From positions 4,325,166-4,389,165 of the forward strand of contig NW_021167081.1 of assembly GCF_003711515.1 (NCBI RefSeq): 64,000 nucleotides of DNA, in the 5' to 3' direction. Source of the DNA: Sodiomyces alkalinus F11 (lineage: Eukaryota; Ascomycota; Sordariomycetes; Glomerellales; Plectosphaerellaceae). Made by a program: the position numbers and the translations under genes. Below the pieces are notes generated by a model. It saw only the letters and a list, made by a program, of their open reading frames with translations. It ran no database searches and was not told the origin of the DNA. This document shows positions 10,968-43,587 of this stretch, one piece after another (within the stretch, counting starts at the first letter, position 1; every line of letters starts with the position of its first letter).

Positions 10968-11449
10968 AACCGCCCTTATAAATAAAGCTAGCCTAAGTTT
11001 AAAAAGGAAGAGAAGCGTTGAGAGGAGGAAGATTTAATCGATCTAAGTATCGGATAGTAAGAGGAGGACGGCGTCTCTTATAGTTAGTCCGGGGCTATTA
11101 CCTTAATATCGAGTAATAATAGGATTAGCGGTTTCCCCGATTAGGGGGCGATGTAGAAGAATGAGGAGGAGGAGAAAAAGAGTAACGACGATCTTTTCTT
11201 TTATTTAGATAATAAGGACGCTACCGCTTTAATAGCCTTCCTATTTACGGAGGAGGTAAAGCCCTTAACGCAGAGAAGTTATATAGCCTTAAGGGCGATA
11301 CCACTAAATTAGGGCTAAGGATAAAAGAGGTGTGTCGCGGAGGCTCCTTATATAATAACTACAATTATGTAATAATAACTAATTTATATTAATACTTACC
11401 TCTTTCGACTTTTCTAAGCTATTATTAGCCTAATTACCCTAATAGCCTC
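10968..11449 (+). pseudogene. Element A pol, piece 1 (linker between protease and RT)
   Basis: Matches the minus strand of 39760-39280 in copy B. It encodes an acidic, Glu/Asp-rich linker (several E-E-E-x-K and D-D runs at about 11010-11200) followed by a stretch that in B leads into the RT. The frame stops abruptly at the target site of Y1 (GCCTC, 11445-11449) and resumes at 16768. Confidence 0.7.
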
Positions 11450-11787
11450 TGATATACCCTGTCCAGGCATATCTCTGGCCAGCCAGTACTATCGGACCTA
11501 GGGCTTCTAGGGTTCGGAATAGCGACCTTTACGTATAGAAAATAGGGTATAATAAAGATATCTTAACTAAACTAAGGGTCGAAGGACGCCGGGGATATAT
11601 ATCCTCGGCGGGCCCGGGGGCCCGGACTATCTATCTTCCGGTTTCTATATGGACGTATAGTGCCGGCTCTATACGGATATATAGCTCCGGCCTAAACGAG
11701 CGGATAGCTTAGGGCTATACGTTCGTATAGGGTCCGTGCCGCGTAATCCTTACACGCGTATAATACCTGCTTATTGTGGTCGTATTA
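11450..11787. repeat. Left LTR of Y1 (338 bp)
   Basis: Matches 16413-16767 in direct orientation. It contains two copies of a roughly 24-bp unit built on TATACGGACGTATAG (about 11650-11690), against three in the right LTR, which accounts for most of the length difference. Confidence 0.85.
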
Positions 11788-11828
11788 TATGCCCCGGGCG
11801 AGAAGAGCCGTGCGTCCCGCGGGCGTCC
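11788..11828. repeat. 41-bp direct repeat next to the Y1 left LTR
   Basis: The 41 bases immediately inside the left LTR recur at 14649-14689, with the last 18 bases (TGCGTCCCGCGGGCGTCC) identical. The two copies bracket the part of Y1 that has long open frames. Confidence 0.7.
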
Positions 11829-12179
11829 CGGGGAGTAGTCCCGCGACGGGGGTATATAACGCGTATACGGCGGGTATACTAAACGAAATAGTCGGTACTT
11901 ACGACTGGTTACGAATAGATAGTGTTTAAGACGAAAAGAAAAAGGAGGGTAGGTATATATAGAGGGCGCTAACTACGCTAACTATCGACTCCTCCCGCTA
12001 CTATATAGCTATAAACTAGTAGCGACCGTGTCGCTCGACGCGTCCTACCGTGAATATAATAGTGAACGGAGATATAAAAAGGAAAATAAAACTATACCGT
12101 TAAGTATAACCTATATATCTTTTTGCAATAGCGCACTTATATGCTATCCTTTCCTCCTTACGTGCTAATTCTAAGTAAA

Positions 12180-13852
12180 CTCCATATATTCGCGCTATAC
12201 CCTAAAAGACTTATGTCTTAGACTTCCTCTACCTAGGCGATTTCTTCGTCCGTATCTAGGAAGCCCTAGTATTCCTCGTCGAGCTTAAGCGTATCTTCGA
12301 TATCCGATATTCGTAGCTCGGCCGCGTGTTAGTCTATCTCCGCCCTATTAATATCGTACGATAAGATAAGGTCCTTAGTTCCCGGGGCGTTAGTGTTACA
12401 CGAGGACCGTGGTATATAGAATCAGGTCTTAGGCGCGTGTGTTATACTTAGTAAACCTATCCGTTATTCGGGCGCGCTTATCGGGATCTATACTACTATT
12501 AGTAGTAAGTACGGTAAACTAGGTCGTGTCTTCTATATGCTAGAGTGCGAGGAGGAATACTAGTCCTACGGTATTCTATACTTTACTCGGGATAATATAG
12601 TCCTTAATAAAGTTTCCGGCCTAAAGTCCTACCAGGACGGGGAGCATTATACTATACCCGCGCTATAAGAGTAACGATAGCTTCTATCTATTATATAAGA
12701 AGTCCTTATATATATACGCTATATTAGGAGTGAATAGGCGTTTAGCAAGATAGTTATAACCCTATATCCAGACTATTTCTTAGCCGGGCCTAGTAACGAA
12801 CCGCTTCGCCGCCGGGGAGCTAATATAGCCTTCATACAGTCTTTTTATACGACTAGTCGGGGTAGCGTTAGTAGTGGCTAAGGCGGTTTAGGTAATACTA
12901 ATCGCTATACCTAAACGTAGCTAGGCGAGGATATTAATAGCTTATAAAATTATTAGCGTAGTTCTTTATATATCGGATTAAAGGAAGTGACTAATATATA
13001 CGGCGCGGCCTTTAATAAGTCTATAATAGTCGCTAGTCCTAGCTAAAAAGGTAGACTTATCGATATCGCCCTTATAGCGGACCTCCACGGCGTCTACGAG
13101 TTTAAGAGCGAGATACGCTAGCTTATTTATTTCCTATAGAATATAGCTGGGTATTATCCTATCTACTATAGGAATAGCGGCGGGTAAGGATAGGCCGGCT
13201 ATATTAATACTACTCGTGGCCGACCGGATAAGGAATAAGGTTAGCGCGCTATTATTTTACGGTATAGACGGGTTAGTGCCGCGCGTAGCGGAGGATAAAT
13301 CGGGTAAAAAGCGATTATTAGACTCCTATAGTGCGTTATATTAGGGTATCCTTATAAGGTATTACTTAAGTATTTACTTAGGTCTATTCTAATTTACTAT
13401 ATGTAGATTATAATCTAGTAAAAGCTAAGGCTAGGGATAAATAAGGGCGAGTACTCTAGCATTATCTATACTAACTATACGGTTTACCTCGATTACAGGA
13501 GCGAATACCGTTTAATACAAGGTATAATTAAGCGGATCGTTATACCCTAATACGGTAGTATAGCTATAGTAATCTATAATAATTTCTTTATTTTCCCTAT
13601 GGTAAATACGGAATACGGCCCCGGATATAGAAAGTTAAGTAATAAGGAGACTCTTATCGCCGAATAATATCATAGCACGAAAATAACCCTTAAACGGTAA
13701 GCCCTTACCGGTCCTACCGCGGTGAAAATACCTAAAGAATTAGTACCCGAATATAGCGTCCTTTAACCGGTTAATAGCTAATAGATATTCCACTACGTAT
13801 TACCGGGCTATAAATATTATATAATAGGCGAAAAGATAAACGAAGTATAAAT
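12180..13852. pseudogene. Long RIP-stopped frame inside Y1, strand undecided
   Basis: A frame of about 500 codons can be read through TAG/TAA on the plus strand (about 12340-13852), and a codon-aligned antisense frame is about equally open on the minus strand. An acidic stretch on the minus strand at 12385-12180 (D-I-E-D-T-L-K-L-D-E-E-Y) looks like a protein C-terminus and favours a minus-strand gene. Neither translation resembles gag, pol or a transposase that I know. Its position between LTRs and between the 41-bp repeats suggests cargo of a non-autonomous element or a captured host gene, but that is inference. Confidence 0.4.
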
Positions 13853-14189
13853 AGGTATATACTTAATACAATAAGAAGATAACGGGGGAATAGCCTTTAT
13901 ATAGTAGACGAGTAGCCTATATAAGAGAAATAGAGGAAGGGAAAAAGGTATACGAGGCTAAAGGGAATACGGTTAGCGCGTTACTATAATAGTAAAGGAA
14001 GGCGAGGGAATAGATTTATTATAGGGGCCCGAGAAATGTTTATAACCTTATAGGCGGTTTAGCTAATCTAGTAGGACGGCGTTATTTAGTTTTAGGTGCC
14101 GGTGATATACCTGCCGTTTAGAGATTAGATAATAACCCTTCTACCTTCCCTTACCCGAGCTTAAGGCCGTTCGCTATACGTAAATAGCG

Positions 14190-14600
14190 CGTGGTTACCT
14201 TAGGTAACTCGGGTTCCTTATTCGATACCTAATAAGGCTATAAGGCTATAGTAAAGCCTTTTAAAGGGTCTTTGCCTCGAGTATTCTTTAACCTATCGGT
14301 TCCTTTAGTATTTCCTGGCTACAGTATACTCGAAACCTCCGCTTTCTTTAAGGCTATCCTTAAATTAACTAAGGTCTTTTATCTCTCCTTAAAAGGCGTT
14401 AATTAGCCTTTATAGCTTTTTCTGGCCTTTAAATATTCCGGTAAGCTAGCCGTCCTTATATTATACTAGGTGCTTAATCTATAGCTAACTATATCCCTCG
14501 TGTATTATCTAATCTTATAGTGCTTATATGGGTCTTAGAGCTTTAGCTATATAATAGCGTCCGGAAGAAATCCAAGAGGAATTTATCAGCGATAGCCGGG
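14190..14600 (+). pseudogene. Second degenerate frame inside Y1
   Basis: A hydrophobic plus-strand frame of about 135 codons with six to eight RIP-type stops, between the larger frame and the second 41-bp repeat. No domain recognised, and the strand is uncertain for the same reason as above. Confidence 0.25.
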
Positions 14601-14739
14601 AGAGTCTAATAATCCTATAGATAGTCTATAAACTAACGTCTCTAAGTATCTACCCCGGGAGATATAAGCCCTGCGTCCCGCGGGCGTCCTTTAGCGGCGA
14701 TAGTATTCATAATAGAAAGGAAAAAAGGGAAAGGAAAGA

Positions 14740-14905
14740 AGCGAACCGCTAGGTAGCGATAAGGAGCGAATAGCGAGCGTTATAGGGAATAGAATAGAAT
14801 AGCGAGCGCCGAGGGAAACGGAATAGAATAGAATAGCGAGCGTCTAAGCGAATAGAATAGAATAGAATAGCGAGCGCCTAGGGGAATAGAATAGGATAGC
14901 GGACC
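14740..14905. repeat. GAATAGAATAGCGAGCG tandem array
   Basis: Repeated GAATA pentamers punctuated by GCGAGCG, four irregular units of about 35-40 bp. It lies just past the second 41-bp repeat of Y1. The units are purine-rich on the plus strand. Confidence 0.7.
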
Positions 14906-15479
14906 ACGATATATACTACTAGCGTGCCTCTATATTAAGCTATAAGGCGTCGGTAATTCAACTACGGCTAAACGATAGTCTTTATCTATAGAACCTCTAG
15001 GTCTTAGTGAGGGATATACTAATAGAGATCTCTGCCGTTTAGTTCTTCGGCTTTAACCGGCCATTTAGCCGTCCGGGGTGCTACGGTCTTCCACGGCGTC
15101 GCTCCGAAGTCCGAGATAGGGTCTTAGTCGGAAATAATAGACACGGCGGTGCTATAGCCGTAGATAAGGGTGGCCTTAGTAAACTTATCGGTCACGGTTA
15201 AAGGTAAATTTGCTATAAAGAAGCCCTCCCTCTAGTAAGGAGGATAATTAAAGGGCTTTAGGTAAATCTAATAAAGGCTAGGATATACCCCCTAAGCCTT
15301 AGGGTATATAGCCTCTTACACGGATACTAATTCCACGCTTTTCCCCTTAGGGTTATTAAGCCGTTAGCCTCGGGTATTCTTAGCTTATTTAGTAGCCGGT
15401 CGGATAATAACGAGCCGCGCGGCCTGCTTAGGAAACGTTCTTCGCAAAATGCGGGAAAAGGGGAAAAGAAAGTAAGGGA

Positions 15480-16412
15480 AGGGGGGGGGTTATCGAGTAG
15501 CTTAGTGCTACGGTGGAGGGGGGGGATTATTATATACAGGATAGTATAGTCGTTACCCTACGCCTTTTAGCGATTATTAGAATGGTTAGCGTCGGTGTAG
15601 GTTAGTATAGTCGCCTACGCCGACTAGCGATTATTAGGAAGATTAGGTATTATATTAGAGCTGGGGATCTATAGTTAGTGCTAGAATAGGTTAGTATAGG
15701 CGTTATTCCTGCGCTTAACTAGCGACCGTGGATTCCTTAGTTACTCCACGGAGAAGATAAGGGGGGGATTCGTTAAGTGGCTTAGTGCTATAGTAGAGGG
15801 GAGGACGGTTATCCGAAGCTTAGCGCGCCCCGTGATTCTATCGGGACTCTGGTTCCACGGAGGACGCTAGTATATAGGATAGTATAGGCGCTATCCTACG
15901 CCCTTTAGCGATGTATAAGAACGGTTAGCGTCGTATAAGTCGGTATAGTCGCCTACGCCGACTAGTGATTATTAGGAAGGTTATCGCGGTGTCGAAGCTC
16001 GGGTTCCACGGCTAGTATAGATTAGCATAGTCGCTATTCCTACGCTTAACGGTGGTTCCCTTTATTACTCCACGCCTAAACCTATTAAAGGGGAGGCGTC
16101 TTTGCCTAGCGTAAACGGTAGTATCCGCGGGTATACTATATACCTATTTAGTCTTAGTATACGTAGTCCGTAACGGCGACCGCTAGTATACCGCGTGTCT
16201 ATTTAGTTTTAGTATATATAGTTCGCGCTTTCGAGGGCGGCTATACTTAGCACGCTAGCATTCGCTAGTAAACCACGTGCTTATTTAGTCTTAGCGTATA
16301 TAGTTCGCGATAGCAACCGCTAGTATACTATATGCCTAATTAGTTTTAGTATATATAGTCTACGCCGGGCGGTAGTACGCGAACCTTACCTAAAAGCTTA
16401 GTTACTACTATT
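15480..16412. repeat. Y-family subrepeat region (copy 1)
   Basis: A block with no coding frame made of diverged internal repeats. A motif of the form GGTTAGTATAGGCG..TATTCCTACGCTTAAC occurs several times, alternating with GCGATTATTAGGAAGGTTA and with units ending TTAGTATATATAGTTCGCG. The same block recurs at about 47950-49092. If Y is a minus-strand element this is its 5' leader. Confidence 0.65.
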
Positions 16413-16767
16413 TAATATGCCCTATCCAGGTATATTTCTGGCTAGCCAATACTGTCGGACCTACGGCTTCTAGGGTTCGGAATAGCAACCTTTAGGTATA
16501 GAAAATAGGGTGTAATAAAGATATCTTAACTAAACTAAGGGGCGAAGGGCGCCGGGAATATATATCCCCCCGGGGGCCCGGACTATCTATCTTCCGGTTC
16601 CTATACGGACGTATAGTTCCGGCTCTATACGGACGTATAGCTCCGGCTCTATACGGACGTATAGCTCCGGCCTAAACGCGCGGATGGCTCAGGGCCATAC
16701 ATTCGTATAGGGTCTATGCCGCGTGATCCTTACGCGCGTATAGTGCCTGCCTATCGTAGTCGTATTA
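16413..16767. repeat. Right LTR of Y1 (355 bp)
   Basis: Direct copy of 11450-11787 with three rather than two of the TATACGGACGTATAG units (about 16605-16670). It ends at the GCCTC duplication. Confidence 0.85.
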
Positions 16768-19700
16768 GCCTCTTAGTCTTATATTTTCGGAAGGACTAGA
16801 CGATATAGGATAATTCTTAGATAAGAGCGCTCGAGGCTTTAAAGAAAGAGGAGGATAGTATTACTAGTATAGCCGCGGTTATAATAAAAAGGCTATAGTA
16901 GCCTAAGAGGAGGAAGTCCTAGGATCTTATTAAAAAAGTATACTATCCCCCTAATCCCGGAGGCGTCTTTACTATATAGAAGCCTAGGGCTCTTGACGTT
17001 TAGCCTCTTAATAATATTCCGTCTAATAGAAGTATCCCTAATAAAGACCCCTACTAGAAAAAGAATATCCTCGTAGAAATTAAAGAGGAAGACTAGGAGC
17101 TAGAAGATAAGCGGTTTATTAGCCTAATTTTACCGAAAGTTTCTGAAATTATACCTCGTTCGCGCCTTATACCCGAAAGACTTAACGCTATCGTAAAGAC
17201 TATCGACCACTTAACCCTTAAGGAATAGGAGCTCCTAATAAAGGTCTTCCTAAACAGCGAGATAGCTATTATGTAGGATTAGACTAAGTACGGCCGCCTC
17301 GATAAACGGGTAGCCCTTTTATAGAAAATTCGATTGGTTCCTTATAAGGTGTAGTAGGCGAAGGGGATCCTTATCCCTAAGGCTTTAGAGTCTATAGTCG
17401 TGTAGATAATAAAGGACCGCCTTAAGAAAGGTATAATCGAGGAGAGCTACATAGCCTACTATAACACCTAGTTCCTAGTTAAGAAAAAGGATAGTAATAT
17501 ACGGCTTATTAACTCGGCTACTAAGATTAACGTAATAACCTTTTAAGATACCTTTATACAGCCTAGGGCTAATAAGTTCTCCGAGGATCTCGCTATATAT
17601 AAGCTTATATCCCTCTTAGATATTTTCTCCGGCTATAATTAGGTTACCCTTAATAAGGAGTCTAAAGATCTAACCACCTTTATAATTATTATTAGACTCT
17701 GTAGGATATATACCCTTCCTTAGGGGGCTACTAACTTAGTAGCCTAGTTTATACTTATTATAACCCGTATCCTTTATAACCTTATTCCTTAGTGCTATAA
17801 ACCCTTTATTAATAATATTATAGTAAAAGGGCCAATACTTCCTTATAAGGATACTCTAATTAGACCTAGAATTTGCTATTTTATAGCCGAGTATATCGCT
17901 AATATCGATAAAGTGCTCCTTAATATAGAGCTAACTAGAGGTATTATCGTAGGTGTTACAAGCTAGTGGTATTCGAAAGCAGCTATAAATATAGGCTATA
18001 TCTACGGTACTAACAGTCGTTCCTCTAAGTAGGCTAAGATCGCGAAGGTCTAAGAATAGGAAAAGTATAGTATAGTCTCTAATATTCGTTTATTCCTTAG
18101 TCTCGCTACTTTTTACCGAGTCTAGATTTATACGTTCGTTATTATTACTAGACCCCTAACTGACCTACTACGGAAGAATACTGCCTTTAAGTATGAGGAG
18201 CCTTAATAACACACTATAGACACCCTTAAAAAGCCCTTACTACTACCCTTATCCTAAGTATTATCTAGTACGGCGAAGGCCTAGGAGTTATCTACGTTAT
18301 CGTTGACGCTAGTATAGATAGATAGGGTAGAATCCTTAGTTAGTATATTAAGAATAAAAGACCTATAGTATAATACGAAAACGGTCGCTAGTCTCCTATA
18401 AAAAGGGTCTATAATACTAGTAAGCTAGAGCTAAGGGGAGTCCTAAAGACCTTTTGGCGCCTATATAACTACCTTTATAGGGTTTACTTTATTCTTAAAA
18501 CCGATACCTAAGCCTTTTTATCATAGTTAAAAGCATCTACTACTAACCTCTCTAATATCCTAATTACCCGATAACTTACTTAGATCCGGCTCTTCGACTT
18601 AGACGTTAAGTATATTAAAGGATCTAAGAATACTATAGCCGATACACTCTCTCGGATACCCATATTACCCTTTAATTAGACTAATAACGATACCGAAGGA
18701 GACCTAGACGACTTCGTGGATAATAGAATCTTCCTTACGGAAGCCGAGAAGTAGTTTAATAACACTGCCCTGGCTAATAATATCCTCGATAAGGACCTTA
18801 CCTAGAGTTTAGTTTTCCCGATAAATAGCTACCTTTTTAATAACCTTTCGCGTGTCTAGAGGAATAGATCCTAAGGAAGCCCGTAGAGTTAAATATAGGG
18901 CTACCTATACATTCCTTAAAGATAGACTATTATAGACCCGAGTAACTAAGGCCGATTCGACCCTTAAACGCTAGGTTAACGATAAGGATACCTAGGTTAA
19001 CCTAATTAGGAGAGCCCACGACGAATCCGGATACCGAGGAAAGCAGGGCACTTATTACCGCCTCGCCGCTAACTACTTCTAGGATAGTATCTATAAGAGC
19101 GTTTAGAGGTTTATTAAGTCCTATTCTGAATACTAGGCCCGTTATAGCTATTTCTAGTAGGATCTCCTAATCGCTATGACCCTACCTAAAACCGCCCTCC
19201 CTTTTACCTAGGTTAGCCTAGACGTTTAATATCCCTAAGGGTAGTATCTTATAAAGGCCCGCTATATAATTATAGGTTAGATTAAGGCTCGACTACTAAA
19301 GAAAAACACGTCTAAGGCTATTACCTTATTCCCAGAGGAATATATATCGATAAGTATAGGCTTTATAAAATCCTCCTTATAGATAAAGGTTCCGAGAATA
19401 AGGGTTATATAATTAAGCTAAACCGTTATTATAGGACTACTCAAAGCTCGCCTTAGCCTATTACCCCCGCGCTAATAGCCTTAATAAGGTTAGGTATAAG
19501 GCTATTACCTATACTTTATCTATCAAGTTAAAGCTTTACCCTAGAGCCCTTTATAAGATCCTCCTAGTAGTCTTCTTCGCTAAGTATATAACGGTACGAG
19601 CTTTTACTAGCTATAGCCCTTTGTTCTTTTTATATAGCTATAAGGCTATTACTCTATTTAAGATAATCTACCTAACCTAGAGAGTACTAGACTCGGGCCG

Positions 19701-20440
19701 TGTTAAACCCCTAAGGATAAGATAATACTTTAGTTAAGGGCTTTTACCTAGCTTAATACCGACCGATATACTATTATCATTATAATTACTAAATAATAAG
19801 GGTAATAGATAGCCTATATTAATACTAGCTATACCCGAGTACTCTATAAGTACAGGCTATAGGTTAAGGATCTTATACTAGTTTACGATACTAAGAAAGC
19901 TATTGATATAAGCCGTAAGGCTAAGCTTAATTACTAATGGAACGCCCTATATCGTATCCGGAAGGCTAACCACGATAATATATTCTTTATACTTAATACT
20001 CTTACTAGGGAAGAATTACAAGGGATTACTTTTACTGCTAACCGCCTTAAGAAGTTTATCTAAAACGATAATAGGTACTAAGAGCCTAAGGACTAGACTA
20101 TACTTAAATAAGACTATAGCGAGGAGCTTAAGATTATATACCCTGCTCGAGGAGCGCTTATTACCGAACAAGTTACCGAAGCACCCCTTTTATATAGTCA
20201 GGACCCTAAGGAAGATACTAAGGCCGAGGGTAATATTAGTTGCCCTAATTATACTATTGACGGTCTTTTACGCCGCTCCGAGAGGCTAAAAGAGTTATCA
20301 GGGGAGTATTATAAGAAGCTAGAGTAAGAGTTACAATAGGTAAAGGAGTCTAGTACTATTAAGGTATAGATTCTATAATACCTAGATTTTAACCCGAGTA
20401 AGTATAAGGATTATACTAATAAGCTATATTTTATTTCTTA
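16768..20440 (+). pseudogene. Element A pol: reverse transcriptase - RNase H - integrase
   Basis: Ty3/gypsy-type pol read through RIP stops. RT: a V-P-Y-K-x-x-x-A-K-G-I-L-I-P-K block near 17335-17385, L-L-D-I-F-S-G-Y at 17613, L-P-Q/stop-G-A-T-N near 17710, and a degenerate F-I-N/D-x-I block near 17800 that corresponds to the catalytic F-x-D-D. RNase H follows to about 18650. The integrase (about 18880-19900) has H-D-E-S-G-Y-R-G near 19016 and a pair of RIPped Cys codons near 19120, matching the HHCC zinc module. A basic C-terminal tail ends near 20440. Matches the minus strand of 39270-35590 (copy B) along its whole length. The left end at 16768 is created by Y1. Confidence 0.85.
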
Positions 20441-21150
20441 TTATTACTTTCCCTAATTTCCTTTATTTCTAAAGCCTATACTGGCAAGGAGGCTAGCGTA
20501 TAGTCTTAGGGCCGAGGGTAAATAGAAGCTAAGCCTTTTATCTACCTAGAATCACGATATATGCTAGTATAAAGGGCATAAACCTATAAATAATCTTCCT
20601 AACTACTACCCTAATCCGTTTCGTTTTTAAACCTTTACCTTTATTACCCTAATTAGAAGCACTATAAGCCTATCTAGACTTATTTCCCCGATTAAAAGAC
20701 TTTTCCTTATATTTATTATTTATTATATTTATAAGTAAGCCTAACCACGTGGACGTTATGGAGATATACTACTATATATACTCCTTTCTATAATAAGTAT
20801 AGGTTTCTTTTATTATGATCTCGAATTCTTCACTTCTATTCCCCTAATCACCGTATAATTTATCGGACCTAAGCTAAATTACACCTGGTTTAATATAAGC
20901 TATCTATTCTACGGAAGGGAGTTATAATCGGGAATAAGTAGTATAGAGACAGTTACTAAGGGTATAATATAGTCGAGAGAAATACCGTTAAAGGCTATAA
21001 GCCGTAAACCGTAAATCCCTCCCTTAGTAACCCTAGTACTAGTAACTTATTAAGTTATTACGTTAATCTTAAAAGCCTGATTTTAGAAGTATAAGAGCCC
21101 TCTCCCTCCTACTACTTAAAGCCCCTTTTCCTAATCTCTATTACTAACCG
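20440..21150. other. Element A interval between pol and the next frame
   Basis: Homologous to 35590-34880 in copy B. Pyrimidine-rich with few long frames, and I see no domain. It may be non-coding leader for a 3' transcript or a spliced intron-bearing region. Confidence 0.4.
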
Positions 21151-22440
21151 CTCGCCCTATTACTAATATTATACCCTTATTTCCCTAACTATACCTATAT
21201 ATGCTACCCTTAAACCTCCTATATATAAGTTCCTTATCCGGAAAGAAAAGACTAATACTATACCTATTACTAGAAGAGTAAGTTTAAGACACTAAATTCA
21301 CGACGATAAGAGCCCCGCTAGAAAAACCCCTAAAAGAATATAATATTATAATAACGACGGGGGGATAATAATAATAAAAACGGCAAAATCCGGGGATTCC
21401 CTAGTTTTATTAGCCTAATTAAGCGATTACCGGCCGCTACCTATAAATCTTATTCTTCTTATAAGGGCTTCATTACTAGATAGGCCCGTAGAGTCTAGTC
21501 GTATAGAGTAAAAAACGGATTATTATAAAGAGAAGGAAAAGAGAAGAAGATAAGCCACGAAGAAGACCTCCTTTTATATCTATTTTCCCCTGCTCTTACT
21601 ACCCTACCCTGCTTTCCCACGTAACGGGTCTTTCTTCCCCTAACTACGCGGGCGATTTAGGCTTCGAAGCTTATGTCGTTATAATTCACTACCTACTAGC
21701 TAGCCTAGCCCCGACTACTTTATTTAGTTATAACTACGCCTCTATTCCCCTAATTACCGTAAAAGATATTTATTCCCTCTCTTCTTTTACTCCTAAACCG
21801 GTCCCTCCTTATAAATCTTATATTCGGGGATATATATCTTAATTTCCTTACGCTAGATATAAGCCCCTATAGGAAAAGAGGTCCGGTAATACTTGATAGT
21901 CTCCCCCTTCTAATACTAAGCGCTATCCTTAACCCTCTAGCAATAGCTATTTAGTTTAGCCTAATACCGATATATTAAAGCTAGAATTATAGTCGGAATA
22001 CTATCTCGAGTTAGGAGATCTTAACCTCCTAAAGTATCGCATTACTAGTAAGATATCTATTAATAAATAGGCTTTATATTAATAATATAAATGCTACGCC
22101 GAGGGGACTATAAAGGGCGGTAATTATCGTTATAAATTAACTAAGGTAGTACTATACTCTGCTTAGGAGAAGGATCGGGGTAATTAATACTAGAATACTT
22201 ATCGTCTAGCTAAGAGACCTCTTAATTACCGTATTAACACTATCTTCGAAGGGTATTATCGCGATACGTATAAGCGGATTCGTGAAATTAGTAGTTAGTA
22301 TAGTCCGGGAACTCCTCGCTCCCCTAAATTAACACGTACTAAAAAAAGCGGTATAGAATCTTATTATTACCCCGATTAGTTATAGCTATCTAATATTTCT
22401 CGTAATACCAGTAGGGGACTTTATTAACGGTGACGTATAC
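21150..22440 (+). pseudogene. Element A third frame, unidentified (ORF3a)
   Basis: A frame of about 430 codons, same strand as pol, interrupted only by RIP-type stops. The N-terminal part is basic (R-R-K-R-E-E-D near 21535), then Pro/Ser-rich, with a more conserved-looking C-terminal third (E-L-G-D-L-N-L-L-K-Y-R-I near 22010 to R-D-T-Y-K-R-I-R-E near 22280). The other copy is split by element C at 26859/33879. Presence of the same frame in both copies argues it is part of the element rather than noise. No domain recognised. It could be a divergent env- or accessory-type protein, but no membrane segment or signal peptide is apparent. Confidence 0.45.
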
Positions 22441-22712
22441 CTAAATTAAAAGTGCCCTAGTAGTATAAGGCCTCGAGATAATCTTTATAAGATATTTCCT
22501 TTAAGGGCTAGCTAAATCCTTTACTATAAAAACTTAACGATAAAAGAGAGGCGAACTATTACTAGCCTTTATCTTTATAAATAAGCTAATCTTAATATCC
22601 CTAAGGTCAAGAAGAGTATCCTAGACCCGTCTAGTAATAGCCGCCTTACTTTTACTAGGGATTAACGACTATAGGAAATCTAACTTAACGTATAATAAGC
22701 CGCCCATACTAG

Positions 22713-23069
22713 TATAACTGGATAAAGACGTAGTGGCACCAGATTGTTAAGACAAAGATCAGATAAAGAGGTCAGTCCAGTAAAACCACGATGTATAACT
22801 AAAATATAACTAACACCGCTATCACCTTTAGTAAAGAAGTAGATCGGTAGTCACTATTTTGATTAGGGCAACGTAAGTTAAACTAGAAAGATACCTTAAA
22901 CGTGGAATAAGTAATTATAAAAGAGGATACTGATTATATAATAATCCCTCGATAGGGATGTCCGGCGCCTATCCTTAATATATATATGGGAGGTGGACCC
23001 CGTAGCCTTAAAAAGGGGGTCACGTGACCACCTGCTAAACCACTCTAAAGCCGTATCTGCACGGTGATA
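22713..23069 (-). repeat. 3' LTR of element B (357 bp)
   Basis: Direct copy of 43588-43944 and inverted relative to 47186-47544. On the minus strand it begins TATCACCG and ends CCAGTTATA (TG..CA before RIP). It contains the palindrome GGTCACGTGACC at 23018-23029. Confidence 0.9.
23018..23029. promoter_or_regulatory. GGTCACGTGACC palindrome in LTR
   Basis: A perfect 12-bp palindrome centred on CACGTG, the E-box core bound by bHLH factors in fungi. It is identical in the 5' LTR of B (43893-43904). In the 3' LTR of A the same place has been changed to TATATA by RIP. GGTCACGTGA also occurs in element C LTRs. A role as upstream activating site is inferred. Confidence 0.45.
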
Positions 23070-23189
23070 ATACGGCCCTAGTCATCTCGTTTACGCCCTC
23101 GTAACGTAGATAACTCCTAAAAATAAGCAGATATAAGTAAATAAACCAAGCAAAGAGCTATTGTATACCCTTATTCGTCTAATCACCCC

Positions 23190-25230
23190 GTCCTCCACGT
23201 ATACCTAATTAGGGATCCTCTTAGTTTTAGTTCCTCCGTATATACCGTTCCCTTACTATCTTTATCGGCTATATCCTTAAGACGTCTCTTATCTAATCCT
23301 CTATATATACCTCTACTTACGCTTTCGTAACGTTCTTCCTCCGATTATATAGTCAGGCTCGCTAGCCTTCTTAGCTTCCTAATTAGTAATAGCTTTATCT
23401 GCCTCCTACTTAATAGCGGTATTATAACGCCGTTAGCCTCCCTACTCCACTACTCGTGATAGCGGGAGATACTTACTATTATTAGTAGCGGTATCCTGTA
23501 AAACAGCTTTATAGGGGTTATTAAACGACTGGACCTAATCCTCCCGGCTATAGTTACTTGGTCTAAATGGCACGTTCCTTATCTCGATTAGCCTATAAAA
23601 TAGCAGGCTACGAGATATCTCTAGACCACGACCTTAGTACGCCTAATCCTTCTCCTACTTACTCTATATATCGGTCTTTATGGTAAAATTAACGAGGTCC
23701 TCTCCCTTATACGTGTAGTAGCTAGTGGCCGAACTAATCTTAATAGGAGCGGGCTATAGCTGCTTCTTTAGCTCTATCTTCTTCTAATCAGGGGAACCGG
23801 TAAGGGCTTAGGCTTTATAAGACTTAGACGGTATTATAACAGGAGAGGGTTCGGCAGCTAGGGGCGTGTATTCCTTAGTGACCTTCTTATACTTAGGAGT
23901 GGTAAGCTTAAGGTTACCCAGTTCTAGGAACGCGCCGCTATTATCCTTATTAAACGTCGGGACTTTAGTTAGTCCCTGATTAGGGGAAGGGGACTTCTAC
24001 TTAGTCGTCTAAGGGGTCTCGGGCGCCTTAGGCGTCTTTAGTGTCTTCGGTCCCTTAGGCGGGTTAACGCGCGTCTATTTCTTATTAATAGGCTTAAAAC
24101 CCGTTATCTTAGGCGGATTATAGGAGGGGGTTATAACGGGAGTAGTAGTAGGAGCTAAGTTAGGGGTCATGGTAGGTTACTTAAAAGCTAGCTCGGGCTA
24201 GTGGCCGAAGCCGAAGAGTTCGCCTACATAGCTTAACTAACTATACCGGATATACTATATATAACTAGCGTTATCAGTAGTATAATAGCGTCCGTCCTAT
24301 AGCCGATATAGCCTAGAGGATACGGGAAATAAATAACCCTCCTAAATAATAGAATAAATGTATTTACTAACGAATAGACTACACGAATACGTGTTTTTCT
24401 GCTAGGGTCCGGAGATAATATAGAATTTCCTAATTAGGCTATCTATAGCCTCCTTAGGCGTCTTAATATACCGTAGCTAACTTATAGCTCCTCGGAAGCT
24501 CTTTAGTAAACGCTTGTTAGCTCCTCCGTCGAGCTATATACTATTATATACGTATATAACCCAGGTTTCTTAATCTAAGATTAGGCTGACAAAGTGGTTA
24601 CCTCTAATAAAATATATAAAGGGGATTAGTCTACTCGTCGTAATACGGAAAAGGTCCTTATCGCTAATATCTAGGTAGTTATACTTCCGCTTCTTCGCGT
24701 CGTATCCCCACGAGTCGACGTTATTAATCTAAACCTTAGACCTAGAATCCCTAATCTGCTTAGTAGTTATTACCCTGATTAGGTCTTTTAGGGTGGACTT
24801 TTCTAACCACTTATTCTTCGAGACGTTATTATACACTCTTTAGGTAGTAAGTAAGGCTATTCGAGCCGATATAACGCTATCCCCACGGACCTTTACTATT
24901 AGAGTTAACTAGATTACTTTATCCGTAGCTTCTCCCCCTAAGTACTCCCCTTCCACGCTTCCTAGAAGCTATTAGATAGCCTATTAGTTAGCCTTATCGC
25001 CTATAGCGAACCTAAAAAAGAGAGGGTTATTATTAGATATATCGAATAGACGGTAGGAGAGGCCGGTTAAGGGAAAAGCCTATCTACTCTTCTTAGGAAC
25101 GTATTCTGCGCGGCTTCTAGTACGAGACGTAACGACTACGCATGCTTTAGGGTGAATATACCGCTTAAGTAAGTTCCCTATAGGGGCTATAGTCTAATAG
25201 TTAGTTATAGCGGTAGTGATATATATAATA
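23190..25230 (-). pseudogene. Element B: C48 (Ulp1-like) cysteine peptidase frame
   Basis: Minus-strand frame of roughly 680 codons after ORF3a. The peptidase core runs from about 24620 to 24330. It has an N-H-F-V-S-L-I-L-D block with His codon 24596-24594, a Y-V-Y-N-S block where Asn replaces the catalytic Asp by a D-to-N change of RIP type, a Gln codon before K-N-T-Y, and S-C-S-L-F-V-S with Cys codon 24383-24381. This is the H...D...Q...C order of the C48/Ulp1-SENP family, with 71 residues between His and Cys, close to the family's spacing. The N-terminal 200 codons are conserved with copy A but unassigned. The C-terminus is Pro/Lys-rich, then basic (G-R-T-L-R-K-R-K near 23370). C48 peptidases remove SUMO-like modifiers or act as virion-type maturases. 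Which one applies here is unknown. Confidence 0.65.
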
Positions 25231-26570
25231 AGAGGGGGAAAAGGGGTGCTAAGGGGAAATAAGAGCCACCGTGAGTATAAACTATAGCTAGTTAGCCTAA
25301 TGAGATCCAGGGGCGTTAAAGGGAGTTAAAAAGAAAAAGAAAAAGTTATTACTTACAAAATAGAGGTTAGTAGTTACGGGTGATATCCGAGGGTAAAGGC
25401 TAGTCGAAAACTAAAGAGTGGAAGAGAGAGGAAAAGAGATCCTTAGACCTTAAGGTTAAGGGATATTTATCCTTCTCTAATAAGCTCGAAAGTGCCTTTT
25501 TCCGTGATAGTCTTCTTTTCGAGGGTTCCTTTATAGCAGGCGTTACTACTTAGCTACTACCTATAAAAGAGTCTTTTCGGTTAGTTAAAGGAGGCGTGCC
25601 TTAGTCACTCCGATAGTAACTTCTTTAACCCGACGAGAAGGTTCCTGATTAGGAAAAAGACGTTACAATCCGGGATTTAATTAGCCGAAGAGATTAGACG
25701 AAATAGCTCCTGCGTTATTTAGTTATAGGCGTAGCCGTGATTTAGGAATAAGGGATCTAAAAGGGGAAATAGTGAATCACCCCTCCCTTAGGCCGTAGTA
25801 GGTAAAGGCCCTTTTATAACTGCTTTAACTAAATAGCCCTCTTTATAATTGATAGCAGTAATAAGGCTTGTAGCCTCCCTTAATCGCTTAATCCCTCGTG
25901 TATAAAGGGCGAGCTTTCTAGCGGTATCCCTCCTCTTCTTTTTCTTTTTCCCACCGTAATATCGAGATAGATACGAATATAACCGCTACTTACACTTATA
26001 ATAATCTAATAATAGTAATAATAGCGACTATACGGCTAATTAGTATAATTAACGAGACGCAGTCTTATAAAAGAAAGAAGGCCGTTGCCCGTTAATAGTT
26101 TATGAAGCTAACGGCGTGGTTCTAGCCCGCGGCTTATTTACCGCTTAAAACCCGTAAGGAGTACTCTTTTAGGGTAACCCTAGTGGATATAGTGGTTAGT
26201 TTTTATCGATTCCTTACGCAGCTTACCCTAATCGAGTTATAAAGAGACTAATAACCTATAGGTAAACTCCTATCTCGGCTAGTATAAAGTGGCTAGTAAG
26301 GGCGGTTCGTCGTACGTCGAGTTAGACTTCCTATAGTCGTTAATTCCTGGTAAAAGTAAGGCAGCTATTACTAGGCGGGTCTAGGATACCCTTCTTAACC
26401 TTAGGGACGTTAAGGTTAGCTTATTTATAAAGATAAAGGCTAGTAACGGCTCCCCTCTCTTCCATCGTCGAATCTTTATAGCGAAGGATATAGCTAGCCC
26501 TTAAAGGGAATATCTTATAAAGATTATCTTAAGGCCTTATACTACTAGGGCACTTCTGATCTAGGTATAC
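25230..26570 (-). other. Element B interval between ORF3a and the C48 frame
   Basis: Homologous to A at 43945-45050 (right part) and to 22440-22712 (left part). Short readable stretches exist, for example a D-S-T-M-E-E-R-G block near 26470, but frames shift and no domain is evident. The reading frame of the peptidase may begin in this interval. Confidence 0.35.
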
Positions 26571-26864: not shown

Positions 26865-27350
26865 TGTTACGACCAGCGGGCCCAATATACAGGAAGGGTG
26901 CCCTAGTACGTAATACCGCACCAAGATATAACCAGAGGATAGCCAAGGAAGGGTCACGTGCCGGGTCACGTGATACGAGGACATAAGAAGGATACACTAG
27001 TACGTGGGCTGCTTACTAGGAGGGCTAGTAAGTAACGTGGGCTACTCACTAGGAGGGCCAGTAAGTAATGTAGGCTACTCACTAGGAGGGCCAGTAAGCA
27101 ATAAGCTATATATACTAGATTATCCTAGGTCTTACTTCTACTATAGAAGAAGACAGTATTTAATCTAAGTCTTTATTAGAAACCTCCTTAAGTATTATAG
27201 TGAAAAGGCAGACTTACCTTACGACCGCCTACGAGAAGTTACGAGAGACTTACGCTTAGCTTATAACCTCCTTTTACCTCGTAAATATAAACTCACGATA
27301 ACCCTAACTAGGGATCCTAGACTTAGTGTCTAGGAACCTAGGTCGTAATA
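26865..27350 (+). repeat. 5' LTR of element C (486 bp)
   Basis: Carries three tandem copies of a 33-bp unit (GTGGGCTACTCACTAGGAGG and onwards, about 27004-27102), against one in the 3' LTR. Two GGTCACGTG motifs at 26952 and 26964. Its outer part is much less RIPped than its inner part. Confidence 0.92.
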
Positions 27351-27439
27351 TTTTAAACACTCCGTTCAGTAAGTGGACCTTACGAACTAAGCGTTAACCT
27401 ATCTAGGACAATAGTACCTTAAACGCCTACCGGATCGAC

Positions 27440-29400
27440 TACCGCAGGACCGGCTTCGAATAATTAAGAACTAGCTAAGTCTATGGCTAAGCTCCGAGAA
27501 GTAGTCACGTAACTCAGGAACGAAAATAACACTTTTCAGGAATAGCTTCAGGCTAAAGGAAAAGCCAGGACGTTTAAATTCCCTAAACCGGAACTATTCG
27601 ATAGTACACGAGGATAACTTCGACGATCCTTAACGCAGGCCAGGGCCTATCTTTGTTATTATTCTAATACTCTGGTTAATAACGAAGATAAGGCTATCTA
27701 CACGGCCTTATACTTTTAAGGAAATATAGCTAACTAGTTTAAACTATTCTATCGAGATTTCCTGGAAAACGATAACGTTAAGGACTAAGACTTAGATAGT
27801 TAAAGAATCTTTAGTAATTACGACTAGTTCGAAAAGAAGCTAAAAGGGGTCTTTAAAGATCCTAATAAAGCGCGAGCCGCTATTTAATAGCTTAAAGGGC
27901 TTAAGCAGAAAGGATTAGCTTTCGACTACACGGCTAAATTCTAGTAGATTATCTTATACCTTAACTAGAATAACGAACCCTTAATAATAGCCTACTACTA
28001 AGGCCTTAAGGAAGAAGTTAAGGACGACCTATATAAGATAAAAAGACCCGACGACTTCGCGACGTATACGGCTATAGCTATAGAAATCGATAATAGAAAC
28101 TAGGAAAGAAGGCAGGAACGGAAAAAGAATGACCCGCCTTTATATAAAGCTAATACTAGTCGAAGATAACCGAATCCTAGATAACGATAAGGAAATACTT
28201 CGTGGGGGCACTACGAAGGACCTATAGAAATCGATAATACTAACTATCGGAAAAACACTTAAAAGGGTATTCGATAAAAGAAGGAAGTAACCTACTATAA
28301 TTATAATACAAAAAGACACTTCGCCCGAGAAGATTATTAACTAAAGCGAGAACGGGAAGTAAGAGAGACTAATATAGTAGAAGTATAACCCGAAGTACCC
28401 TACGCCTTACTCTCGTGAATAACCTGCTTTAACGATAGCCATACTATATATAAGTCTAGTAAAGATAATACAGGGTAGTACCCTAAGCGACCGTAATGAA
28501 CCTTAGTAATTATATTAGGAGTATATAACGAAGAAGATAACGACTAGATAAATAAGGCGCTTAAAGATAACGAAGATATAGACGCTCTACTAGGACTATA
28601 GGTGTAGGACTAGGTATAGAGGACTAATAGAACCTAGGAGTAGGTAAATAGATAAGACGAGCTAACTATAAGAATATCTTAGCTAGTATAATATAGTAGC
28701 GAAGAACTACCTACGGATAATAAAAACTATATCGGTATACTAATACGCGTAGTAGAGTAGAGCTAGGATAGCGATAATACCGAAGAAGCACTATAATAAC
28801 TCAAGGAAGAATAGTATAAAGAGTATCGATAGGAACCATAAGAGATCCGCGAAGGATTAACCACCCGATAATAGCGATAGTATCCGAATTATAGTCTAAA
28901 AATCAATAACCATCTATAACTAGAACCAGGATATAGCCAGCACCTATAACTATAGTAAGTAGACTATACTCTTAACGGATATAATCTCTATAAGCACTAA
29001 AAGCACGCGAATAACTTCTAGCCTAGGAAAGGAGAACGTACTAGAACTATAATTAGGATAGTATAAGAAAGGATAGGATAGATTATTACCTAATAACACT
29101 ACTAGAACGGACTAATAATCCTATAGCTAGATTAAACCCGACCTACGGGGTATATTACGGGTAATATACCTTATTCGATATATACTAAGGACGCCTATAA
29201 AATATACTATGAATTAAATGCTAGGGAATAGCGGATATTATAGGCACTAAAAAGCTATAAATATAAACGGTATAATAAAGGCCTACGATAACGAATCTAG
29301 AACGTAATAGTAGAAGAACGAGCTAGGGAGCTTAACGTATTAATTAACGGACCCGACTACTAAGGGCTAAAAGAAAGATTTAAGAGGAACCGACCTTACG
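27440..29400 (+). pseudogene. Element C gag
   Basis: After a short leader an ATG at 27483 opens a frame with a coiled, Gln-rich start, then a retrotransposon gag core (F-Q-G-N-I-A-N-Q-F-type block near 27715, L-K-G-L-K-Q-K-G near 27890). A zinc knuckle lies at 28293-28337: codons read Y-Y-N-Y-x4-H-x4..Y, where Tyr replaces Cys by RIP. It packages the genomic RNA into virus-like particles. The frame then passes through Asn/Asp-rich sequence to the protease. Stops are all Gln/Trp type. Confidence 0.8.
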
Positions 29401-29439
29401 ATATAATAAAAAACTAAGAGTACTTCCGTATAAGGAGTA

Positions 29440-32400
29440 TATATAAGAAGCCTTTAAGATTTACTCTATAGAGATCAGGGATTACCTATATACCGATATC
29501 CGGATTTATAATATCGACACGCATATAATAATCGATAGCGGAGTATAAGAGAATTACGTATCTCTAAGATTCCTTATAAGTAAAGAATACCGTAGTAATA
29601 AAAGTAACTATAAGACGAGTACGAAATACGAAACGTAGAGGGATAAGCTATATCTTACGGTAATAGTATCGTCGATAAAGAGACGGTACTACTCTAAGTC
29701 GTTATCCAGGGGAAAAAAGGAACGATAACCTTCGATATAACTGATATAGGGAAATAAGATATATTACTCGGGGTCCCGTGGCTATAAAAATAAAACCCTT
29801 ATATAGACTAAAGACTTAGCTACCTTTAGTAGGAGTTAGTCACTAAGGAGAGATCGGGAAATGATCCCTTAAATAACCCCGGAGAAAGACCCTTAACGGG
29901 TATACGCGGGAAGAAAATAAAGAAATAAAAGAAATAAGTAAAACAAGAAAAAATACCGCGAAAGATAGTGTTTAGCCGGGACTAGACTAAATAATATATA
30001 AAACACGAATAGAAACTCGTACTCGTATTTATTAAGATAGCTCGGAAGGATAACGAACGATTAGTATATATACTCGAGGAATACTAGTAATATAAGAAAC
30101 TCTTCCGGGAAAAGTTAGAAACCAGTTTACCTAAATATAGGCACTACGATTATAAAATCCCGTTAAAGCCAGGAACTAACCCTAAGTTCTATAAGATCTA
30201 TAGCCTTAACTAGAAGGAGAGAAACGCCTTATACGAGTATATCCGAGAATATCTCTAGAAAGGATATATTAGACCTTTAATATTACTAGCAGGATACCCT
30301 ATCCTATTTATACTAAAGAAGAATGGCAAACTACGACTTTATATAGACTACCGATAACTTAACGATATTACTATTAAAAATCGCTACCTTTTACTACTTA
30401 TTAGCGAGTTACGAGATTACTTATAAGGAGCGTAATGGTTTATAATACTCGACCTAAAAGGAGTTTATAACCTTATTGGAATTAAGGAGGGAGAAGAATA
30501 GAAAACTATATTTTAGATATAAAAATAATACTTCGAGTACCTTATTATACCTTTTAGACTAACTAACACGCTTACTACCTTTTAGTCTATAATTAATAAC
30601 GTACTATAAGAGTACCTAAACGACTTCGTAGTTATATACCTTAACGATATCCTTATCTTCTCGGAGACCCTCGAAAAATATAAAGGATATATTTATAAGA
30701 CTCTAAGTAAGCTCTAGAAAGCGAAGCTATTAGTTAAGCTTAAGAAGAGTTAGTTTTATAAGAAGGAAGTTAACTTCCTCGGATTCACTATTAAGCTAGG
30801 AGAGATTTATATAGAAGAATTAAAAGTCTAAGCCGTTATAGAATAGCCTACGCCTATAAGTATTCGCGATATTTAAGTGTTTTTAGGCTTCGCTAACTTC
30901 TACCGATAATTTATAAAGGATTACGGAAAGATTATAAGGCCCTTAACAGGAATAACTAAGAAAGATTAGAAATTCGAATAGACCGATAAAGCCGAAGTAG
31001 CCTTATAGGAAATCAGAAAAAGAATCCTTAGTAGACTAATACTATGAATACCAGACCCTATAAAGCTATATAAAGTGGAGACTAACACCCCCGACTACGC
31101 TTTAGGAGGATAACTAGGATAAAAAGATAAGGAGGGACGCCTATATCCGGTAGCCTTCTTCTCGAAGAAACTCCACGGACCAGAACTTAACTACTAGATC
31201 CACGATAAAGATAGTAATTATCGAAAGATTTAAGGAATAAAGACCGTACCTATCTAGGACAGAGTACCCTATTCAGGTCTACACTAATTATAAAAACTTA
31301 ACTTATTTCACTATAAGTAAAGTGCTAAATAAACGATAAATTAGACAGGCAGAATTCTTATTAGAATTTAACTTCGAGATCTAGTATCGGAAAGGATTAG
31401 AAAATAGAAAAGTAGACGCACTAAGTCGCTAATAGCTATCAGAATAAGTAAATGAAAAGTAACACGCTATACTCTAATAGCAGGATAAAAAATTAATTAA
31501 TAACTTCCGGGAACTTATACCGATTAAAAGAATTAACTAAGATATTATTCGATAAGCGTATAATCTACTAGTATATAGTTATTAGGGAGTGACTAAGACG
31601 TATTAATAACTACGATAACACTACGGATATTAAGGAACTAAGTAATAAGTATAAGACTATATTAAGAAGTGCGAAGTGTGTAATAAAGCGAAAGGATTAA
31701 GGTATAAGCCTTATAGACTACTATAACCACTATTAATTCTAGAAGCGGTATAGGAGTTAGTCTTTACCGACTTTATCACGGGGTTACCTAAGTTAAGAGA
31801 TCTAACTACTAGGAAAAAGTACGATAACGGAAAAGTAATCGTGGACCGATTAACTAAGTAAGCGTACTTTCTACTATTTAACACTACGACTACTACCGAA
31901 TAACTCGTATACACTTTCCTAAGATATATTATAGGAAACCATAGAATACCGAAGTAACTAGTCACGGATCAAGATAAACTATTTACTAGTAAATTCTAGA
32001 AATCTCTAGTCGTATAACTAGGGATAGACTACCGACTATTAATAGCGTTTTACCTATAGACTAACGGATAAACGGAAAGAATAAACTAAACCCTCGAATA
32101 ATATCTAAGATACTTCGTTAACTATAAGTAGGATAACTAGGTTAAACTACTACCGCTAGTATAGTTTATATATAATAGTATACTAAACGAATCCAGTAAA
32201 ATTACACTATTCTACGCTAATTATAGATTTATACTTACGGCTTATAGAGAACCTAGAGAAGCGCGAGAAGCGCCTAGAGCTACTAAGAAAGTTGAAAAAA
32301 TCAAGGATATCCACGATTAACTACGGCAAGACCTAAAGATAGTCAGGATCAGAATAAAAACATACGCCGATAAGATAAGGTTAAAGGGACTAACCTTTAA

Positions 32401-33040
32401 AGAGGGGGATAGCGCCTACCTTATACGGCGAAATATTAAAACTAAGTAACTAAGCGATAAATTAGATTTTAAGAAGATCGGACCTTTTAAAATTTTAAAG
32501 AAAATCTCGGATACTAACTACCACCTTTTATTACCCGAGACTATAAAAATACACCTAGTCTTTCACGTCTTATTATTAGAACTAGTATTATAGGGGTTAT
32601 AAATAAAAGACCTTATCGAAATCGAGAATAATAAAAAATACGAAGTTAAATAAATCCTTCATTACCGAGAGACGCTAGACGGTATAGAATATTTTATTAC
32701 GTGGAAAAATTACGGATATAAAGAAAATATATAAGAACTAATCACGAATTTAACGAACTGCTAATAACTCCTAGAATAATGCCGATAAAACGCTATTAAG
32801 AACCAGAACCAGATATCGTAGTCTAAGTAAAAGTTATATCGGAAAAATCATTTATATCCTACGCTAACACTTAATTCTAGTTAATCGTATCTATCGCACC
32901 TATAGCTTATATAGTAGCTATAGCCTCGGCGGTTTTACGCTACTACTGTTAAAGGGCCTTAGCGAGGACCTCGGCGGCTTTCCGCTATTACTCGTAAAGG
33001 GCCTTTTCCGCGAGGTTCTCCTCCTCTTCGAGTCGCTTAA
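29440..33040 (+). pseudogene. Element C pol: protease-RT-RNase H-integrase-chromodomain
   Basis: Protease: I-D-S-G-V at 29534. RT: L-Y-I-D-Y-R near 30340, I-L-D-L-K-G-V-Y near 30445, and Y-L-N-D-I at 30637 (catalytic Y-x-D-D with one Asp changed). RNase H: about 31080-31420 with a Y-A-L-G-G block. Integrase: His at 31617 and C-x2-C at 31670-31681 complete the HHCC module, then F-T-D-F near 31768 and V-T-D-Q-D near 31962 for the DDE core. Chromodomain near 32638-32760: K-x-I-L-H-Y-R then Y-F-I-T-W-K-N-Y-G. Such chromodomains bind methylated histone H3 and direct integration to heterochromatin, which fits where this copy sits. All breaks are RIP stops. Confidence 0.88.
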
Positions 33041-33437
33041 GCTTAGCGTTAATTCTACTAACTAAGAAAGGAGTGTTAGGACGAAGACGACTAAGAGAGA
33101 TAATAAAAGATACTAACTAGAAGATATAGGGACGCGAGAAGAGTTATAGGAGCGACCGGCATAGTAATAATAGGAATAACGATTAAGATTGTCTAGAATA
33201 AAATAGCTAAGGTTACGATCGGAGTAATAAGAATAAGAAATAGCCTCGTAACCCTAATCGTTAATTAGCGCGGATTTAGTTTAACGATTAAGCGTGGAAC
33301 GGGAAGGCGGGACTTTAGTAGAATATTTCTGCATATAGTCGGGCATAATAGTTAACTATAAGAAGGAAATAGAACCTCGAGAGGATAATAAACCTAAGAT
33401 AAGCGACCTATTTATACGACCGCTAAGGATAGCGCTT

Positions 33438-33450
33438 AGAAGAGGGGAAG
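33438..33450 (+). promoter_or_regulatory. Polypurine tract of element C
   Basis: AGAAGAGGGGAAG directly before the 3' LTR (starts 33454), the usual position of the plus-strand DNA primer in Ty3/gypsy elements. It contains no CpA or TpG and is intact. Confidence 0.65.
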
Positions 33451-33453
33451 TAA

Positions 33454-33873
33454 TATTACGACTAGCGGGCCTAATATACAGGAAGGATACCCTAGTATGT
33501 AACACCGCACTAAGATATAACTAAAGGATAGCTAAGGAAGGGTTACGTGCCGGGTCACGTGATACGGGGATATAAGAAGGATATACTAGTACGTAGACTA
33601 CTTAGTAGGAGGGCTAGTAAGTAATAAGCTATATATACTAGAGTATCCTAGGTCTTGCTTCTACTATAGAAGAAGACAGTGTTTAATATAAGTCTTTATT
33701 AAAAACCTCCTTAAGTATTATAGTGAAGAGGCAAACTTACCTTACGACCGCCTACGAGAAGTTACAACAGACTTACGCTCAGCGTACAACCTCCTCTTAC
33801 CTCGTGAACACAAACTCACGATAACCCTAACTAGGGATCCCAGACTTAGTGTCCAGGAACCCAGGTCGTAACA
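33454..33873 (+). repeat. 3' LTR of element C (420 bp)
   Basis: One copy of the 33-bp unit (about 33593-33625). Its inner (left) end is strongly RIPped and its outer (right) end, from about 33750 on, keeps many CpA/TpG, the mirror image of the 5' LTR. Confidence 0.92.
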
Positions 33874-43450: not shown

Positions 43451-43587
43451 ATCTTTATATTCTTCCTGGGGTTATTAACTAATAGTCCGTTTAGGAGGGC
43501 CGGAACCTCCCTCGAGCGCCTTTATTACTCTGGTTAGGGTTAGAATACTTTCGGGACGCCGAATAAATCCGCCTCCGAGCACTATAT

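Follow-up and report, generated by a model that had tools for sequence, protein, structure and literature searches.

We find it likely that a Ty3/gypsy-type retrotransposon in the genome of Sodiomyces alkalinus F11 carries a gene for a clan-CE (C48) peptidase, and somewhat less so that its lineages have exchanged this gene as a cassette; tentatively, we propose that the peptidase acted on the host or on the element's own complex. The window in which the element was recognized, a stretch of 64,000 nucleotides (C3:4325166–4389165 of the 43.4-Mb genome in 22 contigs), holds two RIP-killed copies of this 14-kb retrotransposon, one nested in the other. It shows a strong RIP-like bias, with a TA/AT ratio of 1.70 and a (CA+TG)/(AC+GT) ratio of 0.29, compared with 0.72 and 1.22 at a locus without RIP in the same genome (L012).

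Self-blastn of the window places a repeat of about 360 bp in direct order at 22710–23072 and 43585–43947, and in inverted order at 47547–47183, and resolves two copies of a C48-type frame in opposite orientations: copy B in element 1 and copy A in element 2. Element 1 (about 22713–43944, minus strand) is bounded by a 5′ LTR at 43588–43944 and by a 3′ LTR of about 360 bp at 22713–23069, the former placed by self-blastn, the latter also by genome matches, with the boundaries set by eye. Its insertion into element 2 is marked by a target-site duplication, CTAG, found by eye at 22709–22712 on the left and 43945–43948 on the right. Element 2 (plus strand) runs with its pol and 3′ part from 16763 to 22712 (self-blastn and tblastn), resumes at 43945 and ends in a 3′ LTR at 47183–47544; a further 5′ piece at 10960–11450 is separated from the rest by an LTR-like element at 11452–16767. 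An earlier note on this DNA had described two independent, inverted copies of one retrotransposon family: the inversion and the common family are correct, but the copies are not free-standing. An inverted-repeat DNA transposon, as copy A alone would suggest by its inverted ends of about 310–365 bp, was rejected, the left of these arms being that of the nested element 1 and the repeat forming same-strand pairs elsewhere in the genome.

The pol of element 1 occupies a single frame at 35609–39130 (minus strand), in which RT (about 38554–38237), RNase H (about 37834–37541) and the integrase H2C2 domain (about 37051–36884) follow one another in the order of Ty3/gypsy elements, as seen both by Pfam and by tblastn. 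With stops read as Gln, the RNase H (E 1.3e-9) and H2C2 (E 2.4e-6) matches lie above the Pfam cut-off and that of RVT_1 (E 4.6e-4) below it; in the pol of element 2, RNase H and H2C2 are both matched below the cut-off. The nearest pol proteins are P0001 (43% identical) and the "pol protein" of Colletotrichum asianum, P0002 (41%). In tblastn, P0001, an uninterrupted relative, aligns with residues 3–1140 of its 1145 to 39052–35609 at 39% identity. P0001, P0002 and P0003 share the order RT–RNase H–integrase and are 38–43% identical over nearly the whole query; they are known here as proteins only. The viral contigs scanned with these pol relatives gave no match.

The element has direct LTRs and a short target duplication, as Ty3/gypsy elements do, and 4-bp duplications were found by eye in all four elements tested (CTAG, GTAG, ATAC, and GTAA). 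The LTR ends read TATAAC...GTTATA in element 1; in two sister elements, one end reads TGTAAC. Identity with a Ginger1 transposon was rejected given the RT and RNase H and the direct orientation of the LTRs, as opposed to a cut-and-paste element with terminal inverted repeats. No chromodomain (PF00385) was detected in the element frames scanned by Pfam, where RIP may hide one, and neither the two frames of the gag region nor the approximately 3.4 kb separating pol from the C48 frame (35608–33874 and 26865–25242, minus strand) gave a convincing Pfam match. This interval largely differs between the two types of element described below. A 13-mer adjoining the 5′ LTR of element 1 (43569–43581) has 63 matches across the genome against 2 for the reversed control, and several of these adjoin an LTR; it is a candidate primer site, but no tRNA gene was found at the 10 loci checked among the 63 pattern matches.

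On the same strand as pol, and about 3.4 kb after it if an inserted element is discounted, lies the C48 frame of element 1 (copy B; 23193–25241, minus strand), whose analyzed end is about 120 bp from the 3′ LTR; its position 3′ of a Ty3/gypsy pol, as claimed in the earlier note, is borne out by Pfam and tblastn. The frame has 683 codons, of which 30 are TAG and 12 are TAA. Its C48 (Ulp1-like) domain, at 24192–25034, matches PF02902 (Peptidase_C48) with E 5.6e-6 and 26.8 bits if every TAA and TAG is taken for Gln, against a cut-off of 20.7 bits; with stops masked as X it falls just under this cut-off (E 5.7e-4, 20.2 bits), and the whole masked frame gives E 0.0026. None of the remaining five frames of this DNA, with stops likewise read as Gln, matched PF02902.

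The catalytic residues noted previously are present in copy B: His at 24594–24596 and Cys at 24381–24383 (minus strand), the Cys lying 71 residues on from the His, and a Gln codon at 24399–24401, six residues before the Cys. The column of the expected Asp, 17 residues past the His, at 24545, is occupied by Asn. Order and spacing (17, 71 and 6) are those of C48 peptidases, and Ulp1 itself has similar catalytic spacing. Among 177,635 PDB sequences, the best match of copy B was ChlaDub2, which we take to be a clan-CE peptidase; the match is weak (E 0.45), and its alignment covers the His and Asp columns while missing the Cys. A search with the A2 profile matched no C48 structure, and two protein searches with the C48 frame found no relative among the candidates scored.

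The claim that both copies keep the catalytic His and Cys held for B and failed for copy A (44999–47068, plus strand), which has Tyr in place of both the His (45656–45658) and the Cys (45869–45871), Asn in place of the Asp, and a stop codon where the Gln would stand. The expected Pfam match was likewise obtained for B and not for A, either masked or with stops read as Gln. Six copies were scored with stops read as Gln, and three exceed the cut-off: B (26.8 bits), L023 (25.0 bits), and L021 (23.5 bits); L037, at 18.9 bits, falls short, and neither A nor L045 is matched. With stops masked, matches came from 3 of the 10 full frames scanned and from 4 of the 9 readings of the domain, none above the cut-off (best 20.2 bits).

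The resemblance might in principle be accidental, a low-complexity, RIPped frame that never encoded a C48 domain. Single masked copies below the Pfam cut-off and the lack of a PDB or protein match at a good E-value would agree with this, but three Gln-read copies pass the cut-off where the control frames show nothing. Moreover, two types of the domain that are only about 36% identical to each other have the same catalytic columns, and a stop stands six residues before the Cys column in 19 of 19 copies of the second type, as a RIPped Gln would. We therefore regard a chance resemblance as very improbable. The domain of copy B is very probably C48-like, judging from its sequence, and the element as such probably carries a C48 gene. 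Neither A nor B can make an enzyme as they stand, the frames being full of stops.

The genome was searched with the C48 frame and with an LTR query (the repeat and a neighboring stretch). It should be noted that only the best 65 of 150 rows for the C48 frame and the best 40 of 267 for the LTR query were scored, making copy numbers rough. At least 84 matches to the C48 frame exist, every listed one with RIP-like stops, so that nothing functional can be shown from them; the 84 merge to 61 loci including fragments, and one more gives about 62. For the LTR query, 35 of the 40 scored genome matches were to the repeat, and among these 35 we found 10 same-strand pairs (sought at distances of 10–25 kb), six spanning 13.8–14.5 kb and four 20.6–21.2 kb. 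The C48 frame lies at the 3′ end and in sense orientation in nine of the 10 pairs; in the tenth pair it is of the second type. The C48-type frame is thus supported as a standing part of this element family in the S. alkalinus genome, in keeping with the earlier proposal that it is a third gene of the element.

Had a single copy recently picked up a C48 gene of the host, potential donors would be at hand, as three stop-free C48 genes (L009, L010, and L011) are found there. The survey refutes it: with about 62 listed loci, the frame in 10 of 10 LTR-bounded elements and two divergent types, its probability is close to nil. Similarity between the element's C48 and the host proteins is weak, too weak to name the host genes as its source. 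The non-RIPped locus L012 (C11:294915–295295, minus strand) is a C48 pseudogene-like sequence (26.5 bits, 4 stops) whose His–Asp stretch resembles the domain of the element; as a copy of the element it was rejected (E 0.011 to copy B).

Alignment of 37 rows, A and B included, shows how RIP has affected the catalytic columns: His (H in 21, Y in 16), Asp (D 22, N 14, Y 1), Gln (Q 3, stop 32, E 1, K 1), and Cys (C 24, Y 12, one gap), followed by a residue that is G in 6 rows and S in 30, with one gap. Apart from the single Y at Asp, the E and K at Gln and the gap at Cys, every state at the catalytic columns is either what a C48 peptidase has there or what RIP directly makes of it. In the first type, to which B belongs, His is kept in 21 of 31 rows and Cys in 24 of 31. 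The second type (n = 19) has Y in 18 and a stop in one at the His column, D in 6 and N in 13 at the Asp column, and only stops at Gln and only Y at Cys.

The latter pattern bears on whether the fold was ever a peptidase, at least in the second type, or instead a C48-like domain for binding or scaffolding. His and Cys are today absent from all 19 second-type copies, and an ancestrally inactive enzyme may be what this type encoded. Against this reading, RIP turns His and Cys codons alike into Tyr, and type 1 still reads both residues in most rows. How readily CA is lost, in a RIP-like manner, varies with the base that comes next, as seen in 24 type-1 copies at 328 sites of the C48 frame and its flanks, each unmutated in one copy or more: median retention is 0.36 for CAC, 0.083 for CAT, and 0.045 for CAA. 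Complete conversion of the second-type His codon, a CAT, is thus unsurprising, and we consider a domain without peptidase activity unlikely. In a count of codon retention over 27 type-1 and 19 second-type copies, the type-1 His codon is unmutated in 18 of 27 copies and the Cys codon in 21 of 27, far above the usual site. Selection as the reason for this retention was considered and dropped, since much of the effect can be put down to sequence context (CAC median 0.36, with 29 of 84 sites at 0.6 or above).

The second type was found on a backbone closely related to that of element 1. The sister of element 1 is located at C1:3403292–3417553 (L043 and L044) and is 89.6–89.8% identical to it over 9.3 kb, a length that starts in the 5′ LTR and takes in pol. 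The transversion distance is 0.012–0.014 over this length and 0.014–0.026 in LTR comparisons. The LTR next to the sister's C48 frame shares 93% identity with that of B, as compared with a mean of 87% for the LTRs of first-type copies (28 of 30 comparable); among the other second-type LTRs, that of L045 is well covered and 87% identical to B's, and the remaining four are less than half covered. The C48 domain of the sister, in contrast, is only 37% identical to the masked reading of B (35–37% across six second-type copies), while both types have the same catalytic columns, with 17 residues from His to Asp and 71 from His to Cys. At the DNA level, less than 13% of the protease piece aligns to B in each of the six second-type copies. 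The 900 bp preceding this piece found no match in L043, the only tested second-type locus extending so far; patches of 66–76% similarity to element 1 reappear farther upstream, and the last 85 codons of the C48 frame are again 84–86% identical between the types. The upstream limit of the divergent cassette is not sharp, as part of the L043/L044 element is unreadable.

Fixed transversions between the types, counted in 24 type-1 and 6 second-type copies with kinship among copies ignored (the type-1 set omits L019, L023, L039–L042, and L048), number 88, 81 and 132 at codon positions 1, 2 and 3 (pooled p 5e-4). By part, the third-position excess has p 0.03 in the protease and 0.34, 0.15 and 0.30 in the other parts. 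This excess suggests that the protein was under constraint during the divergence of the types. Within type 1, the same test on 24 copies shows no significant excess and has little power (7, 6 and 13; p 0.19), and column variability in the protease is 0.21, 0.18 and 0.22 by codon position. From the nearly identical backbones and the sharply different domains, an exchange of the 3′ C48 cassette between lineages, rather than a one-off capture, seems somewhat favored; the alternative is a much faster evolution of the C48 part alone.

What the peptidase might do for the element can be considered from its company. A weak retropepsin-like stretch, recognized by its motif by eye and by PF13650, lies in the pol frame upstream of RT (39869–40093, minus strand); E is 0.14 in element 1, 0.0013 in the sister (L044), and 6.2e-4 in P0002, all below the cut-off. 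The earlier note had also offered particle maturation as a role for the C48 protein; this would make it an adenain-like protease that does not act on host SUMO. Viral proteases of clan CE share the catalytic order, and the frame is carried within the element alongside pol, both as such a role would have it. However, the retropepsin-like stretch stands where P0002 has its own, and the C48 gene is separate, far 3′ of pol, and so variable in its domain that it would ill suit a protease tied to fixed cleavage sites. Since the element seems to own a retropepsin, an extra peptidase would more likely serve host proteins or the fate of the integration complex, and we judge a maturation protease distinctly unlikely.

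We thus return to a peptidase directed at the host or at the element's own complex. C48 enzymes cut the isopeptide or Gly–Gly bond to SUMO or a related tag. The 3′ gene of the element, of about 700 codons and separate from pol, would encode a clan-CE cysteine peptidase domain (C48, Ulp1/SENP-like), and the family would have retained a functional peptidase throughout its active period. The enzyme would free host factors that hold the element in check, or the element's own integration complex, of SUMO or a different ubiquitin-like tag; by analogy, a role as deSUMOylase is possible, and we propose it tentatively. Lineages may have swapped the 3′ cassette by recombination, for example by template switching between co-packaged RNAs. 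It is further conceivable, though rather unlikely, that an anti-silencing SUMO or ubiquitin-like protease forms a swappable cassette on the same LTRs and gag-pol, as phages swap their anti-defense modules, driven by ever-changing host targets. If the protease is the changing part and the replication machinery the constant one, conflict with the host is the natural suspect, and the cassette pattern offers a handle on why transposons collect Ulp1 domains.

C48 peptidases are known from Ginger1, MULE and Crypton DNA transposons. As a gene of an LTR retrotransposon, C48 seems to be new within the open-access literature: among the matches listed there, no report of an LTR retrotransposon with C48 or Ulp1 was found, Repbase and subscription journals lying outside this scope. 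If the reading is correct, a very different, reverse-transcribing class of mobile elements took up the same accessory enzyme as DNA transposons. As described in the accessible portion of the source, Ginger1 transposons (Hydra and others) combine a gypsy-type integrase with a C-terminal Ulp1 (PF02902) or OTU domain (PMC2836005); unlike our element, they are cut-and-paste transposons with terminal inverted repeats and have the Ulp1 fused to the transposase, whereas our LTR element, which has RT and RNase H, carries it as a frame of its own. The mention of C48 in plant MULEs in the earlier note agrees with the Kaonashi/KIU genes of the plant VANDAL transposons, which are transposon-borne genes with an Ulp1 domain (PMC13317346). 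The KIU group is linked to DNA methylation loss on related elements, and the accessible part of that study states the precise role of Ulp1 to be unknown (PMC13317346). VANDAL elements differ in being plant DNA transposons with the Ulp1 in a VANC-type gene (PMC13317346); in plants, Ulp1 domains are thus found in elements able to undo silencing, a precedent for carriers of Ulp1 evading it, which for the fungal element would hold by analogy. CryptonF and CryptonS place a C48 peptidase beside the transposition enzyme, and their authors raise domain shuffling between groups; they differ in being tyrosine-recombinase elements, with the C48 bearers named in the available text coming from oomycetes or from an oomycete/diatom group (PMC3212892).

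Among fungal LTR elements, a likeness is found in the Boty-type gypsy elements of Botrytis, which have an extra ORF (brtn); brtn is antisense, however, going by the title of a work cited in that source, and no peptidase is mentioned in the part available (PMC8365987). A survey of LTR retrotransposons in fungi (PMC3248453) describes chromodomains as well as "complex transposons" with many additional domains (in a supplementary figure), and Ulp1 does not occur in its main text as accessible to us. Ulp1-like genes are described on fungal accessory chromosomes (PMC10779208, PMC8146201; accessible parts).

The two nested elements have been invaded in their turn. A 7-kb LTR element, different from the one described here but gypsy-like, is inserted in element 1 at 26867–33871 (plus strand), between pol and the C48 frame. 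It is bounded by direct terminal repeats (26867–27348 and 33456–33871, 89–91% identical) and has a weak gypsy RT match at 30226–31044 in tblastn with pol proteins. The LTR-like element that splits element 2 has terminal repeats 82.5% identical to each other, and related repeats are found at 47546–49226.
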